A stretch of 64,000 nt of DNA from Kineococcus xinjiangensis (GTDB lineage Bacteria > Actinomycetota > Actinomycetes > Actinomycetales > Kineococcaceae): the NCBI RefSeq assembly GCF_002934625.1, contig NZ_PTJD01000005.1, forward strand, positions 124,001-188,000, read 5' to 3'. Shown here in pieces: positions 10,944 to 21,059 of the stretch. The first letter of the stretch is position 1, and the number at the start of each line of letters is the position of its first letter. Made by a program: the position numbers and the translations under genes. Below the pieces are notes generated by a model. That model was not told where the DNA came from and searched no databases. It saw only the letters and a program-made list of their open reading frames with translations.

Positions 10944-14250
<3,307 letters not shown>

Positions 14251-14254
<4 letters not shown>

Positions 14255-15111
14255 CCCCTCCTGGTCCGGGCGGGCGCTTCGGCGCCCGCCTGGCGGAGGC
14301 CGTGGCCCTGCACGGGCCGGTGTGCGTGGGCATCGACCCGCACGCGAGCCTGCTGGCCGCGTGGGGGCTGGACGACGACGTCGCCGGGCTGGAGCGCTTC
14401 TCCCGCACGGTGGTCGAGGCGCTGGCCGGGCGGGTGGCCGCGCTGAAGCCGCAGGCCGCCTTCTTCGAGCGCCACGGCTCCCGCGGCGTGGCGGTGCTGG
14501 AGACCGTCATCGCCGAGGCCCGGGCGGCGGGGACGCTCACGATCGTCGACGCCAAGCGCGGTGACATCGGCTCCACCATGCAGGCCTACGCCGACGCCTT
14601 CTGCGGGGACTCCCCGCTGGCCGGGGACGCGGTGACGGTCTCGCCGTACCTCGGCTTCGGCTCGCTGCGGCCGGTGCTGGACACCGCCGCCGCCACCGGG
14701 CGCGGGGTGTTCGTGCTGGCGCTGACCTCGAACCCGGAGGGCGCGCAGGTGCAGCACGCCACCGGCGGCGACGGGCGCAGCGTCGCCAGGGCGGTGGCCG
14801 AGGCGGCCGCGGCGGAGAACGCCGGGGCGACTCCGCTCGGCGACGTCGGCCTGGTCGTCGGCGCCACCACGGGCACCGCGGCCCGGGAGGCGGGCATCGA
14901 CCTCGCGGCCGTCAACGGCCCGCTGCTCGCGCCGGGCGTGGGCGCCCAGGGCGCCACCGCGGGGGACCTGCGCGACGTCTTCGGCGACGCCCTGCCGGCG
15001 GTGCTGGCGGCCAGCAGCCGGGACGTGCTGCGCGCCGGGCCGGACGTGGTGGCCCTGCGGGAGGCCGCGGAGCGCACCGCGGCGCAGTGCAGGGCGGCGC
15101 TGGGGAGCTGA
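14251..15111 (+). CDS. pyrF: Orotidine 5'-phosphate decarboxylase (type 2)
   Basis: Last step of UMP synthesis, removing CO2 from OMP. The 286 residues are of the longer actinobacterial type. V-C-V-G-I-D-P-H lies near the N-terminus, and the catalytic D-A-K-R-G-D-I-G starts at D100 with K102. G-A-T-T-G-T-A-A and L-A-P-G-V-G-A-Q-G follow. The GTG at 14251 overlaps the carB stop (GTGA) and follows GGGAGG; an in-frame ATG at 14239 is an alternative that adds four residues. It ends the operon before a hairpin terminator. Confidence 0.95.
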
Positions 15112-15140
15112 CCCGCGGCGCAGGACGCGCAAGGGCAGGA

Positions 15141-15182
15141 CGCGGAAGGGGCCCACCACGGACGTGGTGGGCCCCTTCCGCG
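15141..15182. terminator. Hairpin terminator, 19-bp perfect stem
   Basis: Arms 15141-15159 and 15164-15182 with a GGAC loop lie between the convergent ends of pyrF and the DUF4190 gene, and can serve both. Confidence 0.88.
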
Positions 15183-15195
15183 CGCCGGTGGGCGC

Positions 15196-16134
15196 TCAGC
15201 GCTGCCAGCGGATCGGTGCCCCGTCGAACAGGTCGTAGGGGGTTCCGGAGTCCTCGTAGCTCGCACCGGTGACGGGCGCGGTGGGGGAGGCGAGGTAGAC
15301 GACGCACGTCTGGAACGACGCCCCGTCGGCGAACCCGGACGGGAACGACTCCCCGTTGCACGGAGCGAAGTCGCCCAGCAGGTGGACCTTCGCCGCCTCC
15401 GAGCCGTCGGGCAGGAGACCACCGAGGTTGTGGTTGAGGTCGGAGAACTCCAGGTTCTGCGAGTTCGCCACGCCGGTCACGGTGAAGCGCAGGTAGTGCG
15501 GGACCATGCCGGCGGCGCGGTCGCCGAGCCCGAGGGACTCCAGGTCCTGCGGGTTGCCCGTGTCGACGGCGTCCAGGCGGACCTGCACGCGGCCGCCGGG
15601 TTCGTCGGTGCTGGAGAAGTCCACGGTGGCGGTCTCGCCGAAGCCGAGGACGGCGCCGGCGGCGGTCGTGCCGCCGTCGGCTGCCGGCGCGGCCTCGGAG
15701 GGAGCCGGCGCCGTCGCGGCGGGGGTGCTCGGGGAGGGCGCGGGGGCCGCGGCGGTGGCGCCGGGCGTCCCGGCGGGAGCGGACGCCGGGGGAGCGGGCG
15801 CCGGGGGAGCCGTCCCGGTCCTCGTCTCCTGGTACCACGCCACCACGGCGGCCGAGGCGAGGCCGCCGATCAGCGAGAGGACGAGCGCGAGGGCGGACAG
15901 GCCGATGCCGACGCGGGTGAGCGTCCCGTTCGTGGCCTCCCCGCGGCGCAGCCGGGGCAGGGCGCAGCAGCCGACGACGAGCCCCGCGAGTCCGAGGGGG
16001 GCGGAGACGGCGAAGGTGACGACGCCGAGGCTGACGACGACCCCGGTGACGCCGAGGACGAAGCCGGCCAGGCCCAGGCCGTTGCGCGGCGTCGCCAGGG
16101 GCGCGGACGGCGGTGCGGGAGGTGCGTAGACCAC
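15196..16134 (-). CDS. DUF4190-type membrane protein with C-terminal extracytoplasmic domain (paralogue 1)
   Basis: A 312-residue protein. From the GTG at 16134 (GAAGGG six bases upstream) it has a short Pro-rich tail, three hydrophobic segments (about 19-40, 42-60, 76-100) with R-L-R-R-G-E-A-T-N-G between them as in DUF4190 proteins, then a Pro/Ala/Thr-rich linker (105-160). A beta-rich outer domain follows (163-312), resembling DUF4352-like Ig folds: G-E-T-A-T-V-D-F, Y-L-R-F-T-V-T-G, L-P-D-G-S-E-A-A. Cysteines 259 and 277 bracket a Phe/Gly-rich loop and may form a disulphide. The end is P-Y-D-L-F-D-G-A-P-I-R-W. A paralogue with the same plan lies on the other side of the pectate lyase gene. 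Function unknown. Confidence 0.75.
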   Translation of the reverse strand: MVYAPPAPPSAPLATPRNGLGLAGFVLGVTGVVVSLGVVTFAVSAPLGLAGLVVGCCALPRLRRGEATNGTLTRVGIGLSALALVLSLIGGLASAAVVAWYQETRTGTAPPAPAPPASAPAGTPGATAAAPAPSPSTPAATAPAPSEAAPAADGGTTAAGAVLGFGETATVDFSSTDEPGGRVQVRLDAVDTGNPQDLESLGLGDRAAGMVPHYLRFTVTGVANSQNLEFSDLNHNLGGLLPDGSEAAKVHLLGDFAPCNGESFPSGFADGASFQTCVVYLASPTAPVTGASYEDSGTPYDLFDGAPIRWQR

Positions 16135-16466
16135 GGGGAACCCTTCGGGTGACGGCGGGGGAGCGCACCGCCGGGCGCGGCGGCCGCGGTGCACTCCTCC
16201 AGGGTGGCGACCGCCTGACGCGCACCGCCGTTCGGGGCGGGGCGCGTCGCCCGGCCGGAGCAGCCGGACCACCCCGACGCCGCAGCGCGTGACCGGCGCC
16301 TGCGCCGGACGGCTGACGGCTCCCGGGGCGCACAGTCGCCGGGGACCGCCGCGCTCGGGTGGCCGGGCCCCGTCCGCGGCGGCGCTAGGGTTTCGCCGCT
16401 CCCGCCGACCCGGCTGCGGCCGGGCGGGGAGCGTCCCCGCCACACTCCCGACCGAACGGAACCGCT
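16135..16466. other. Divergent intergenic region, DUF4190 gene / pectate lyase gene
   Basis: No gene is supported; the long frames crossing it are shadows. A TAGGGT box (16386-16391), 75 bases before the pectate lyase start, is a likely -10. No -10-like TAnnnT is seen on the minus strand between the DUF4190 start and about 16300, so its promoter is not identified. Confidence 0.5.
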
Positions 16467-17918
16467 GTGCTCCCGACGACGTCAGCCGGCACGTCCCGCA
16501 CGACCGTCGCGCTCCCCGCTGCGACGCGCACCCTGCTCTCCACGGGTCTCGCCGTCCTCGCCCTGGTCGCCGCCCTCCTCGCGGTGCCCGCCCAGCGCGC
16601 GCACGCCGCGACCGTCGACACCGACGCCTGGTACGTGCTCCAGGCCCGCCACTCCGGCAAGGTCGCCGACGTCCGGGGCGCCTCCACCGCCGACGGGGCA
16701 CCCGTCGTCCAGTGGAGCCGCAACGACGGCGCGCACCAGCAGTGGCGCTTCGTCCCCGTCGGCAACGGCTACTACGCCATCCGCGCCAGGCACTCCGGCA
16801 AGGTGCTGGAGGTCCCCAACGCCCTCGACGGCGCGCAGCTGGTGCAGCGCACCGCGAGCACCTCCACGCGACAGCACTTCCGCCTCGTCGACTCCGCCGA
16901 CGGCTCCGTGCGCCTCGTGAACCGCCACTCCGGCAAGGTCGTGGACGTCTGGGAGCGCTCGACCGCCGACGGCGCCGCCCTCGCGCAGTACCGCGACCTC
17001 GACGGCACCAACCAGCGCTTCGCCCTGGTGCGCCTCGGCAGCACCACCACCCCGCCCGCCCAGCCCTCCGGGCCCGCGGGCTGGGCCGGTCAGAACGGCG
17101 GGACCACCGGAGGTGGCGCTGCGACCCCGACGAGGGTCACCAGCGCGTCGGCCCTGAGTGCCGCGCTCGGCTCCAGCACGCCCGCCGTCGTGCGGGTGTC
17201 CGGCACCATCACCTGCTCCGGCATGCTGCGCGTGCGCTCGAACAAGACCGTCCTCGGCGAGCCCGGCGCGACCATCGCCGGCTGCGGCCTCACCATCAGC
17301 GGGGACCGCAACGTCATCGTCCGCAACCTGTCGTTCCGGGACTGGAGCGACGACGCCGTCAACGTGGAGTCCGGCGCGACGAACGTGTGGATCGACCACA
17401 ACAGCTTCCGCAACGGCTACGACGGGGCCGTCGACGTCAAGCGCGGCGCCGACTTCGTCACCGTCTCCTGGAACCGCGTGAGCGCCCACGGCAAGTCCAT
17501 GCTGCTCGGGCACTCCGACAGCAACCGCAGTCAGGACGCCGGCCACCTGCGCGTGACCTACCACCACAACTGGTTCGACGGCTCCCGGACCCGCCACCCG
17601 CGGGTGCGCTTCGCGCAGGGCGTCCACGTGTACAACAACTACTACGCCGGCAACGAGTACGGCGTGGCCTCCACCATGGACGCCGCCGTCCTCGTCGAGG
17701 GCAACCACTTCGAGGACGTGTCCGAGCCGACGCTGGTCGGCTACGCCGACAGCGCCCCCGGGGCGCTCGTCCAGCGCGGCAACCTCTTCACCAGGTCGGG
17801 CGCCCCGCAGAGCGCCGGGACCGTGCCCGCCCTGCCCTACACCTACGTCCTCGACCCCGTGAACGACGTGAAGTCCCTGGTGACCGCCGGCGCCGGCGCC
17901 GGCCGCATCAGCCTCTGA
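16467..17918 (+). CDS. Secreted pectate lyase (PL1) with N-terminal ricin-type beta-trefoil
   Basis: A 483-residue extracellular enzyme. Residues 1-47 form a signal peptide ending A-H-A, then a carbohydrate-binding trefoil (about 50-195) with three repeats of R-H-S-G-K-V followed by W/F-R-F or Q-H/R-F. A Pro/Ser/Gly linker leads to the parallel beta-helix lyase domain (about 225-483). The lyase shows W-I-D-H-N (308-312), the calcium-site D-G-A-V-D-V-K (319-325), Y-H-H-N-W-F-D-G, and R-H-P-R-V-R (376-381) with the catalytic Arg, then H-V-Y-N-N-Y-Y. It cleaves polygalacturonate by beta-elimination, which suggests contact with plant material. Unlike most genes here it stands alone, between two DUF4190 paralogues on the other strand. 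SD is weak. Confidence 0.9.
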   Translation: MLPTTSAGTSRTTVALPAATRTLLSTGLAVLALVAALLAVPAQRAHAATVDTDAWYVLQARHSGKVADVRGASTADGAPVVQWSRNDGAHQQWRFVPVGNGYYAIRARHSGKVLEVPNALDGAQLVQRTASTSTRQHFRLVDSADGSVRLVNRHSGKVVDVWERSTADGAALAQYRDLDGTNQRFALVRLGSTTTPPAQPSGPAGWAGQNGGTTGGGAATPTRVTSASALSAALGSSTPAVVRVSGTITCSGMLRVRSNKTVLGEPGATIAGCGLTISGDRNVIVRNLSFRDWSDDAVNVESGATNVWIDHNSFRNGYDGAVDVKRGADFVTVSWNRVSAHGKSMLLGHSDSNRSQDAGHLRVTYHHNWFDGSRTRHPRVRFAQGVHVYNNYYAGNEYGVASTMDAAVLVEGNHFEDVSEPTLVGYADSAPGALVQRGNLFTRSGAPQSAGTVPALPYTYVLDPVNDVKSLVTAGAGAGRISL

Positions 17919-17924
17919 GACGGA

Positions 17925-17958
17925 CCGGGCACCGGCCCTGCGAGGGGCCGGTGCCCGG
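17925..17958. terminator. Hairpin terminator, 14-bp stem
   Basis: Arms 17925-17938 and 17945-17958 with a 6-base loop; a further CGGA/TCCG pair extends it across one bulged base. It lies between the convergent pectate lyase and DUF4190 genes. Confidence 0.85.
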
Positions 17959-17994
17959 ATCCGACGGCCGGGCGCGACGCGCCCCGGCGGTGCC

Positions 17995-19011
17995 CTACTT
18001 GCGCCAGTGGACGGGCTGCCCGTCGTAGCGGTCGTAGGGGCTGTCGTAGTTCTCGAACATCGCCCCGGACACCGGCGCGGCGGGGTTGGCCATCATGACC
18101 AGGCAGGTCTGGAAGGTCGACCCCTCGGTGAAGCCCTGCGGGAAGAACTGCTGCTCGCACAGGTCGAACTTCCCGTAGACGGTCAGCTCGGCCGCCTCGC
18201 TGCCGTCGGGCAGCGTTCCGGACAGCTTGCCGATCAGGCTGCTGAACTCGAGGTTGGAGGCGCCCGGGCCCCCGGTCACCGTGAAGCGCACGTACTGCGG
18301 AACGAGGCCGAGCGCGCGGTCCCCGAGGTCGAAGGACGCCAAGTCCTCCGGCGTGCCGGTGTCGATGGAGTCCAGCCGCAGGTGGATCCGGCCCGCCGGC
18401 TTGTCCTGCAGCGGGGCGTAGTCGATCGTCGCGGTGCCACCGACGGGCAGGACCGCTCCGGGCGGCGTCGGCTCGCCACCGGCGGGCGCCGGTGCGGGGG
18501 CCGCGGGCGCGGGGGCCTCGGCCGCCGGCGGCGCCGGCTCCGCGGGCTCGGACTCCTGCGGCGCGGGGGACTGCGAGGGATCCGCCGCGGGCTCCTCGAC
18601 GGGCGCCGGCACGGCCGGTCCGGCCTGCGCCGCGTCCGAGGCCCTCCAGGCCCAGGTGGCCGCGGTGGCGGCGGTGCCGAACATCGAGACCAGCAGGGCC
18701 ACGCCGGACAGGGCGAGACCGGTGTACGTCAGGGCGCCGTTGGTGGCCTCGCGCCGGCGCAGCCGCGGGACGGCGCAGCAGGCGAGGACCGCACCCGCGA
18801 GGGCGACGAGGCCGGCCAGGCCGAACGCGGCGAGCCCGACCGCGGCCACGGCGCCCTCCGCGCCGAGCGCGGCCACGAGCAGCGCCGCGCCGAGGGCGAG
18901 GCCCAGGGCGGCGGCGCCGAGGACGAACCCGGTCAGGCCGAGCCGGTCGCGCGGCCCGGCGGGGGCGGCCGGCGGGGCGGGGAGCGGGTGGCCGAGGGGT
19001 GCGTGCACCAC
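17995..19011 (-). CDS. DUF4190-type membrane protein with C-terminal extracytoplasmic domain (paralogue 2)
   Basis: A 338-residue protein with the same architecture as the one at 15196-16134. It has a short Pro-rich start, hydrophobic segments at about 24-50, 53-81 and 96-119, R-L-R-R-R-E-A-T-N-G in the loop, a longer acidic Pro/Ala linker (126-185), and a beta-rich domain (187-338). Shared words include L-P-D-G-S-E-A-A, F-Q-T-C, V-(T/S)-G-A and P-Y-D-x-(Y/F)-D-G-x-P. The paired cysteines are conserved (285 and 303). The linker holds more Glu than in paralogue 1. The GTG at 19011 follows GAAAGG. A TATCCT box on the minus strand (19132-19137) may be its -10. Function unknown. Confidence 0.75.
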   Translation of the reverse strand: MVHAPLGHPLPAPPAAPAGPRDRLGLTGFVLGAAALGLALGAALLVAALGAEGAVAAVGLAAFGLAGLVALAGAVLACCAVPRLRRREATNGALTYTGLALSGVALLVSMFGTAATAATWAWRASDAAQAGPAVPAPVEEPAADPSQSPAPQESEPAEPAPPAAEAPAPAAPAPAPAGGEPTPPGAVLPVGGTATIDYAPLQDKPAGRIHLRLDSIDTGTPEDLASFDLGDRALGLVPQYVRFTVTGGPGASNLEFSSLIGKLSGTLPDGSEAAELTVYGKFDLCEQQFFPQGFTEGSTFQTCLVMMANPAAPVSGAMFENYDSPYDRYDGQPVHWRK

Positions 19012-19370
19012 GGCGGGAGCCTTTCGAGCGAGGACGGGGATCGCGCGGGGCGCGGCGGGCCGGGGCATGCCGACGCGCCGGACCGTCGCCGGTCCGCCGA
19101 CTCCCCCTGCCCGGCCTCGCCCGGCGCGGCGAGGATAGTGGCCGAGCGCCCGCGGACCCGGCAGCCGCGGTCGCCACGGCGGGGCGCGCAGCCGCGCGGA
19201 CACCGGCCGGCGGGCCCCTCCGGGCGCGACACGCCGCGTTGCGGTTCAGGAACAACTTCGTCAAACATGGGTAACGCCGTAGGATCCCCGGCCAGGAAGT
19301 GCCCTCCGGCGCTTATCGTCCGGTCGGTTGCGCCATTCGCGTGACCTCCCCGATCGACAACGAGGTTGCC
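19012..19370. other. Divergent intergenic region, DUF4190 gene / oligopeptide transporter
   Basis: No gene is supported. Two likely -10 boxes point outward: TATCCT on the minus strand (19132-19137) for the DUF4190 gene, and TAGGAT on the plus strand (19280-19285) for the transporter operon, giving it a leader of about 80 bases. The stretch 19240-19285 is less GC-rich than its surroundings. Confidence 0.5.
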
Positions 19371-21059
19371 ATGTCCTGGTCAGACCTGCCCCTGCGCAAA
19401 CTCGTCACCGGCGTCGCCGTCGCCGCGCTGGCCCTGACCGCCGGCTGCGCCGAGAGCCAGCGCGAGGAGAACGACTCCGCGGAGGGCACCGGCGGCGACA
19501 CCGGCGGCACGTTCGTCTTCGCCGCCTCCTCCGACCCGGCGACCCTCGACCCCTCCTTCGCCAGCGACGGCGAGACCTTCCGCGTCGCGCGGCAGATGTT
19601 CGAGGGCCTCGTCGGCACCAAGCCCGGCACGGCCGAGCCCGCCCCGCTCCTCGCCAAGTCCTGGGAGTCCTCCGAGGACGGGCTGAGCTACACGTTCGAG
19701 CTCGAGGACGGCGTCACGTTCCACGACGGCACCGACTTCAACGCCGACGCCGTCTGCGCCAACTTCGAGCGCTGGTACAACCGCACGGGTCTGGCCCAGT
19801 CGGAGAACCTCTCCTACTACTACCGCTCCCTCTTCCGCGGCTTCGAGCAGAACGAGGGCGAGGGCCTCGGCGAGCCGCTCTACAAGAGCTGCGAGCCCGA
19901 GGACGAGGACACCGTCACGATCAACCTCAACCGGCCCTTCGCCGGCTTCGTCGCCGCGATGTCGCTGCCGGCGTTCTCCATGCAGAGCCCCACCGCCATC
20001 GAGAAGTACAAGGGCGACGACATCGGCGGCACCGCCGACGACCCCCGCTTCTCCGAGTACGCCAGCGCGCACCCCACCGGCACCGGCCCCTTCAAGTTCG
20101 GCTCCTGGGAGCGCGGCCAGCAGGTCACCCTCGAGCCCTACGAGGAGTACTGGGGCGACAAGGCCAAGCTGGACAAGGTCATCGTCAAGACCATCTCCGA
20201 CGGGACCGCCCGCCGCCAGGCGCTGCAGAACGGCGAGATCGACGGCTACGACCTCGTCGCCCCCGCCGACGTGGCCGGGCTGGAGTCCGAGGGCTTCCAG
20301 ATCGAGCAGCGCAAGCCGTTCAACATCCTCTACCTGGGCATGAACCAGGCGCACCCGGCGTTGCAGGACCCCCGCGTCCGGCAGGCCATCGCGCACGCCA
20401 TCGACAAGGAGGCCCTGGTCTCCGGCACCCTGCCCGAGGGCACCGAGCCCGCGACGCAGTTCATGCCCGACACGGTGACAGGCTACGCCGAGGACGTCCC
20501 GACGTACGAGTACGACCCCGAGAAGGCCAAGGCGCTGCTCGCGGAGGCCGGCTTCCCGACGCTGGAGATCCCCTTCCAGTACCCCACGGGCGTCTCGCGG
20601 CCGTACATGCCCAGCCCCGAGGACACCTTCAAGAACATCAGCGCGCAGCTCTCCGAGGTCGGCATCACCGTCAAGCCCGAGGGCCTGAAGTGGTCGCCGG
20701 ACTACCTCGACCGCATCCAGGGCACCGCGGACCACGGCCTGCACCTGCTCGGGTGGACGGGTGACTACAACGACCCGGACAACTTCGTCGGGGTCTTCTT
20801 CGGCAAGCCGTCCAACGAGTGGGGGTTCAACGACCCCGCCCTCTTCGAGGCGCTGGAGGACGCCCGCGGCCTGCCCACCGTCGACGAGCAGGTCCCGGCC
20901 TACGAGAGCATCAACAAGCAGATCATGACGATGCTCCCGGGCGTGCCGCTGGCCAGCCCGGTGCCCTCGCTCGCCTTCGCCGAGGGCGTCAAGGGCTACC
21001 AGCCGAGCCCCGTCCAGGACGAGGTCTGGAACTCGGTCACCGTCGAGGACGAGGGCTGA
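19371..21059 (+). CDS. Oligopeptide-type ABC transporter, substrate-binding lipoprotein
   Basis: Extracytoplasmic receptor of the SBP_bac_5 family (562 residues). The ATG at 19371 follows GAGG and gives a lipoprotein signal, L-A-L-T-A-G-C with the lipidated Cys at 26; the upstream in-frame start at 19299 would bury this signal. Family features are A-S-S-D-P-A-T-L-D-P near the mature start, L-A-K-S-W-E, V-T-F-H-D-G-T-D-F-N-A-D-A-V, G-T-G-P-F-K-F, and R-Q-A-I-A-H-A-I-D-K. It is first in a five-gene operon with two permeases and two ATPases. Peptides are the default ligand, but relatives bind opines, nickel or oligosaccharides, and a pectate lyase gene is close by. Confidence 0.9.
   Translation: MSWSDLPLRKLVTGVAVAALALTAGCAESQREENDSAEGTGGDTGGTFVFAASSDPATLDPSFASDGETFRVARQMFEGLVGTKPGTAEPAPLLAKSWESSEDGLSYTFELEDGVTFHDGTDFNADAVCANFERWYNRTGLAQSENLSYYYRSLFRGFEQNEGEGLGEPLYKSCEPEDEDTVTINLNRPFAGFVAAMSLPAFSMQSPTAIEKYKGDDIGGTADDPRFSEYASAHPTGTGPFKFGSWERGQQVTLEPYEEYWGDKAKLDKVIVKTISDGTARRQALQNGEIDGYDLVAPADVAGLESEGFQIEQRKPFNILYLGMNQAHPALQDPRVRQAIAHAIDKEALVSGTLPEGTEPATQFMPDTVTGYAEDVPTYEYDPEKAKALLAEAGFPTLEIPFQYPTGVSRPYMPSPEDTFKNISAQLSEVGITVKPEGLKWSPDYLDRIQGTADHGLHLLGWTGDYNDPDNFVGVFFGKPSNEWGFNDPALFEALEDARGLPTVDEQVPAYESINKQIMTMLPGVPLASPVPSLAFAEGVKGYQPSPVQDEVWNSVTVEDEG

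Follow-up and report, generated by a model that had tools for sequence, protein, structure and literature searches.

A cysteine-pair domain, best read as a branch of the DUF4352/MPT63 group, on twin membrane proteins flanking a pectate lyase in Kineococcus xinjiangensis

Two sister membrane proteins of Kineococcus xinjiangensis, named here A and B, carry a C-terminal outer domain that, as far as its sequence and a predicted model indicate, belongs most plausibly to the DUF4352/MPT63 immunoglobulin-like group, as a branch marked by a cysteine pair, and is not an undescribed fold. This assignment follows from the combination of profile comparison with fold comparison. The pair of proteins is real but largely ordinary. 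Gene A (15196..16134, minus strand) encodes 312 aa, with a DUF4190-like three-segment anchor, an Ala/Pro/Ser linker and the cysteine-pair DUF4352-type domain; gene B (17995..19011, minus strand, 338 aa) has the same layout, with a longer anchor region and linker. These and all other coordinates of K. xinjiangensis are positions within the window, i.e. the whole stretch of 64,000 nt that was analysed.

The outer domain comprises 156 aa, followed by the stop codon, in both A (15196..15666, minus strand) and B (17995..18465, minus strand). Both genes start with GTG, preceded by a GAAGGG site in A and by a GAAAGG site in B. The proteins are paralogues that agree at 47% of positions in an alignment of 276 aa (E 3e-75) and at 53% within the outer domain alone, a likeness that is beyond chance. 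A search for other copies in the genome, which the sequence-only reading had called for, returned A and B and no third copy of the domain; two low-complexity rows from the same genome (L003 and L004) were dropped as linker or chance matches. The earlier description of twin paralogues on either side of a pectate lyase, each with an Ala/Pro linker and a β-type outer domain of about 150 residues containing two conserved cysteines, is thus borne out by the identity of the two proteins, by the gene positions, by the linker present in both and by the two cysteines, which are found in all 37 rows of the subfamily alignment.

Indeed, C103, C121 and W154 (domain numbering) are the only columns that are invariant in the 37 aligned rows. 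Every row contains exactly two cysteines, compared with none in 20 of the 22 DUF4352 rows, and C103-C121 is, judging from these sequences, a probable disulfide. Among 26 further rows from the order, 24 have two cysteines in the matched stretch, five being shifted by 1-2 alignment columns; the remaining two are L111 and L113, the latter with a shortened match and two cysteines further on in its frame. The C-terminal Trp is aligned in 18 of these 26 rows. The P-Y-D-x-(F/Y)-D-G-x-P end, already recognised as common to A and B, is found in both of them and also in two Kineococcus relatives, though it is not invariant in the wider family, so that by sequence it is a more local trait than C103, C121 and W154. 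Two distant lipoprotein relatives, L092 and L034, end in YDxFDGxPxxW; the end motif of A and B therefore recurs outside their family. No catalytic signature was seen in the domain.

Searches of Pfam and NCBIfam with the two outer domains gave no family with a meaningful E-value, and the PDB sequence search with the domain of A and with the 37-row subfamily gave no meaningful match (best E 0.63, with the subfamily profile). The NCBIfam, PHROGs and PDB sequence matches obtained were taken as chance. For DUF4352 (PF11611), whose gathering cut-off is 25.9 bits, neither A nor B produced a match at E <= 10; 4 of the 37 subfamily members matched the Pfam model at E <= 1 (best 0.0015), and the DUF4352 search of the K. 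xinjiangensis genome found 0 matches at E <= 0.001. The profile of the whole subfamily (37 rows), however, aligned to that of DUF4352 (22 rows) with an hhalign probability of 96.4% (P 1.2e-9) and a score of 59.3 over 111 columns, compared with at most 16.7 in 100 column shuffles and with 13.6 and 12.3 for reversed profiles. The DUF4352 set contained 22 of the 28 rows above the cut-off, leaving out the repeat L070, two rows without a locus and the weak rows L065, L076 and L077. In addition, the subfamily profile retrieved a classical DUF4352 protein, L111, at E 2e-6, at the same place as L056. Together, the hhalign result and the match to L111 show that the domain is homologous to DUF4352 at the profile level.

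A passage of PMC4520260 describes DUF4352 as an immunoglobulin fold, and a passage of PMC3924330 suggests that it may take part in recognising extracellular ligands. The proposal of an undescribed surface module stands in so far as the sequence models of Pfam, NCBIfam and PDB give the domain no name. It does not stand with respect to kinship, which by profile and fold lies with DUF4352 and MPT63. A confident match to an established family of known function had been named as evidence against that proposal; this applies only in half, since the family matched, DUF4352, is established but has no assigned function.

The AF2 model of the domain of A, built from 5 rows, has a pLDDT of 78.4 and a pTM of 0.76, with values below 50 for residues 97-99 and 142-148. 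Its best Foldseek match, and the single one below 1e-3, is YxkC (6.5e-4); an earlier model (4 rows, pLDDT 72.6) had no Foldseek match at E <= 1e-3. MPT63 was not among the 50 Foldseek rows listed and leads only after realignment with VIA, which gave Z-scores of 12.5 for MPT63, 11.1 for YxkC, 9.9 for YjhA, 9.5 for YcdA, 9.4 for 4les and 8.6 for 3qfg, followed by 5bxg (7.2), 4eae (6.7) and ApaG proteins (6.0 and 5.7), a best Z of 7 to 8 being common without a clear match. The similarity to MPT63 of Mycobacterium tuberculosis (1lmi) extends over 130 of its 131 residues with an rmsd of 2.9, whereas the identity is 8%; its PDB title describes a secreted protein. The three Bacillus subtilis proteins YxkC, YjhA and YcdA share the predicted fold at 7-10% identity, and identities over all quoted fold matches are 7-13%. 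Moreover, YcdA and YjhA weakly match the DUF4352 profile (E 2.8e-4 and 0.017, respectively). On the predicted model, Foldseek and VIA thus point to a DUF4352/MPT63 immunoglobulin-like β sandwich, and the structure prediction and profile search that had been suggested as checks both place the domain with this group.

Hydropathy analysis locates the hydrophobic segments at residues 25-41, 43-59 and 82-98 in A (17-residue window) and at 29-47, 63-81 and 93-111 in B (19-residue window); the three membrane segments previously noticed in each protein are recovered, although their number depends on the window, since A shows two segments with 19 residues and B two with 17. An RLRR loop precedes the last segment in both proteins. 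The positive-inside rule is the basis for orienting such segments, and together with this loop it would place the C-terminal domain on the outer side of the membrane and keep the loop and the N-terminus on the inner side.

The anchor had been named as DUF4190. In Pfam (PF13828, gathering cut-off 35 bits) this is sub-threshold for A (15.7 bits) and without a match for B, and when the whole genome was searched, the two proteins reached 19.1 and 13.6 bits, likewise below the cut-off. On the other hand, the profile of the membrane part of A and B aligned to six DUF4190-type rows with an hhalign value of 94.8% (P 5e-8) over 43 columns spanning the second and third segments, with a score of 44.1, compared with at most 20.0 when the columns were shuffled 100 times, which shows profile homology with DUF4190. 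The six rows consist of the three matches above the cut-off elsewhere in the K. xinjiangensis genome and of L082, L051 and L073, which lie below it. A literature search on DUF4190 found no paper. The second segment of A and B ends in a common Cys-Cys pair (GCCALPRLRR and ACCAVPRLRR; 15964..15969 and 18775..18780, minus strand), which is absent from the six DUF4190-type rows.

Most relatives of the domain are anchored differently. A rule requiring a lipobox, a hydrophobic stretch before it, a positive charge before that and no hydrophobic stretch after it is passed by 33 of 35 relatives and by 25 of 26 further ones, compared with 2 of 22 DUF4352 proteins; these counts leave out 7 class rows and 2 order rows that had no locus, count L013 and L016 once with L019 and L029, which they repeat, and include near-identical rows, so that they are not independent. 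In the first set the rule fails for L038 and L047, where inspection by eye shows FGTAC and LSTAC at the equivalent place, and in the second for L111; three more relatives from the 37-row phylum search look like lipoproteins by eye. Both A and B contain a lipobox-like sequence, VVGC and VLAC, respectively, and fail the rule, as a hydrophobic segment follows the site (2.41 and 1.91); positive charge is also absent from the stretch tested before it.

The closest comparisons are with Kineococcus siccus L009, K. vitellinus L010 and Actinoalloteichus spitiensis L011, whose domains are 40-42% identical to that of B and have both cysteines and the C-terminal Trp, L009 and L010 additionally sharing the PYDxYDGxP end. 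These three proteins have a lipobox cysteine, whereas A and B have three membrane segments instead. In a 62-row tree, whose deep branches are weak, A and B form a sister pair (100/96), which groups with the two Kineococcus lipoproteins (99/92). Since the pair excludes the Kineococcus proteins, the duplication behind it is younger than the split from these; the supposed old duplication thus holds for the divergence between the two copies but not relative to that split.

The layout of A and B has a precedent in L051 (1489-2358, minus strand, in a genome of the same family), which combines a DUF4190-like anchor (24.4 bits, below the cut-off) and an Ala/Pro-rich linker with a classical DUF4352 (103 bits). 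L073 (DUF4352, 40 bits) has the same three-part organization. In both of them, however, the outer domain is of the classical DUF4352 type, with two cysteines elsewhere in L051 and none in L073, and not of the cysteine-pair type of A and B. The simplest history would be a single change from a lipid anchor to a DUF4190-like anchor followed by tandem duplication, though the exchange could also have gone in the opposite direction.

The cysteine-pair subfamily is sparse in Actinomycetota and occurs mostly on lipoproteins. Among the 12 genomes of the family, the domain is present in two besides K. xinjiangensis, Kineococcus siccus R8 and K. vitellinus T13. In wider searches, the first four-row profile found it in at least 5 of 396 phylum genomes, the domain of the distant member L013 in at least 35 of 394 genomes of the class, and the 37-row profile in at least 28 of 396 of the order and at least 9 of 396 of the phylum, the last two counts including at least one classical DUF4352 protein (L111); all are lower bounds, since no more than 9 candidates were scored per genome in several searches, include K. 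xinjiangensis itself and come from overlapping samples that are not independent. A contig scan with full-length B as a single sequence found no match, and three loci emerged when the four-row alignment was used. Phage records contained no match, and plasmid records a single Streptomyces match, with 34% identity across 38% of B.

Between A and B lies a gene for a secreted protein of 483 aa (16467..17918, plus strand, from the first mechanical start codon) with three ricin-B-lectin stretches (RicinB_lectin_2, PF14200, 5.4e-42) and a pectate lyase domain (Pectate_lyase_4, PF00544, 1.6e-34). A and the lyase gene diverge from a shared 332-bp gap (16135-16466), whereas B converges on the lyase gene, so that the three genes do not form one operon. 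The group is bordered on the left by pyrF (14239..15111, plus strand) and on the right by a gene for a family-5 solute-binding, oppA-like protein (19374..21059, plus strand), from which an opp-type transport operon continues to an integration-host-factor-like gene with an H2TH domain, presumably mihF, and then to gmk. A perfect inverted repeat of 20 nt with a 2-nt loop (15141..15182) lies between the convergent pyrF and A and is a possible shared terminator of the two, while a scan for terminators with a T-run found no site there; the promoter scan gave 0 sites, with about 0 expected.

The slot from pyrF to the opp operon or mihF (15112..19373) is variable among nine relatives that were compared, out of the 11 in the family besides K. 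xinjiangensis. Five of the nine have the pyrF-opp order without A, lyase and B, their matches to pyrF and oppA lying 642 to 2716 bp apart; one has pyrF and mihF with no opp match, and three have pyrF only, one of which shows weak ATPase matches (28-29%). A second ATPase gene at the opp place was found with an OppF query (44-47% identity). In two relatives, the slot is occupied by a large protein that is probably a secreted, nuclease-like enzyme (L142, 1623-3416; L143, 1828-3684).

That A, B and the lyase lie together most plausibly reflects their occupation of one variable slot, with a link to the lyase that looks incidental. None of the 11 other family genomes, including those of Kineococcus siccus and K. 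vitellinus, which have the domain, matches the lectin-pectate lyase at E <= 1e-10, in contrast to K. xinjiangensis, which has both. The gene downstream of the domain in these two genomes is methyltransferase-like by sequence in one and has glutathione-transferase domains in the other. Conversely, two other pectate-lyase-like places of the K. xinjiangensis genome (C15 and C14) have no copy of the domain, as its only copies are A and B. Taken together, these observations leave a special tie to the lyase unsupported. Copies scattered without relation to secreted enzymes had been named as evidence against the sequence-only reading, and within these tests such copies were found.

We consider it reasonably probable that A and B are outward-facing, stalked immunoglobulin-like binding or adaptor proteins that descended from lipoproteins by anchor exchange and subsequent duplication; the fold, the anchor and the absence of a visible catalytic signature suggest such a role on the outer face. 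Three DUF4190-like hydrophobic segments would fix each protein in the membrane, the RLRR loop facing inwards, and an Ala/Pro stalk, flexible and some 50-60 residues long, would extend one DUF4352/MPT63 immunoglobulin-like domain, braced by the single probable C103-C121 disulfide, into the cell-wall zone. There the domain would most likely bind an envelope protein or a wall ligand or serve as an adaptor for it, a role of the kind already put forward for DUF4352. The ancestor would belong to the lipoprotein family, its lipid anchor being swapped once for a DUF4190-like one before the tandem duplication that gave A and B.

Regulation of cell-wall enzymes by the domain, for instance of a D,D-carboxypeptidase such as DacA, by comparison with a deposited YxkC-DacA model, is in our opinion rather unlikely. 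It would agree with the best Foldseek match, chain A of 9a4z (VIA Z 11.1), an integrative model of YXKC-DACA in which we take chain A to be YxkC, but a common fold does not show a common partner. Similarly, a passage of PMC3924330 raises the idea that NlpC/P60 peptidases might be regulated by versions encoded in the same operons, whereas A and B have pyrF, the lyase and an opp-type operon as their immediate neighbours, with no wall enzyme among them. The literature library searched contains no paper covering both YxkC and DacA, and YxkC alone led to unrelated papers among the matches listed. That the domain is an unrelated β fold, sharing only a common sandwich arrangement with DUF4352 and MPT63, appears very improbable: the low identity of the fold matches and the lack of a PDB chain matching the subfamily profile better than E 0.63 would fit, but not the profile-profile score, far above the best of 100 shuffles, nor the direct match of the subfamily profile to L111, nor a fold match that covers nearly all of MPT63.

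A partnership with the lyase, in which A and B would retain the lyase or its pectin fragments on the cell surface, seems quite improbable to us. It would fit the presence of A, lyase and B in one variable slot, a lyase restricted to this genome among the 12 of the family (E <= 1e-10) and the transcription of A and the lyase away from their common gap, and DUF4352 is listed, in a passage of PMC3585893, among the Pfam domains that help to predict plant-biomass degraders. However, the convergence of B on the lyase gene without an operon, the two Kineococcus genomes with the domain and no lyase, and C15 and C14 with no domain copy all argue against it. Still more speculative, and highly improbable, is a lineage-specific system whose stalked domains would catch the lyase or pectin fragments near the adjacent oligopeptide-type transporter, the lipid anchor having been given up in favour of three membrane segments for this purpose.

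The binding or adaptor role thus remains our preferred reading of A and B. The pair alone opens no new biological question. Nevertheless, it is a likely case of one outer domain having moved from a lipid to a polytopic anchor. Furthermore, a cysteine-pair subfamily that the libraries searched do not represent by a separate model, and that is thinly spread through Actinomycetota, joins the DUF4352/MPT63 group, a widespread and little-studied kind of bacterial surface protein, and the annotation of dozens of hypothetical lipoproteins could benefit.
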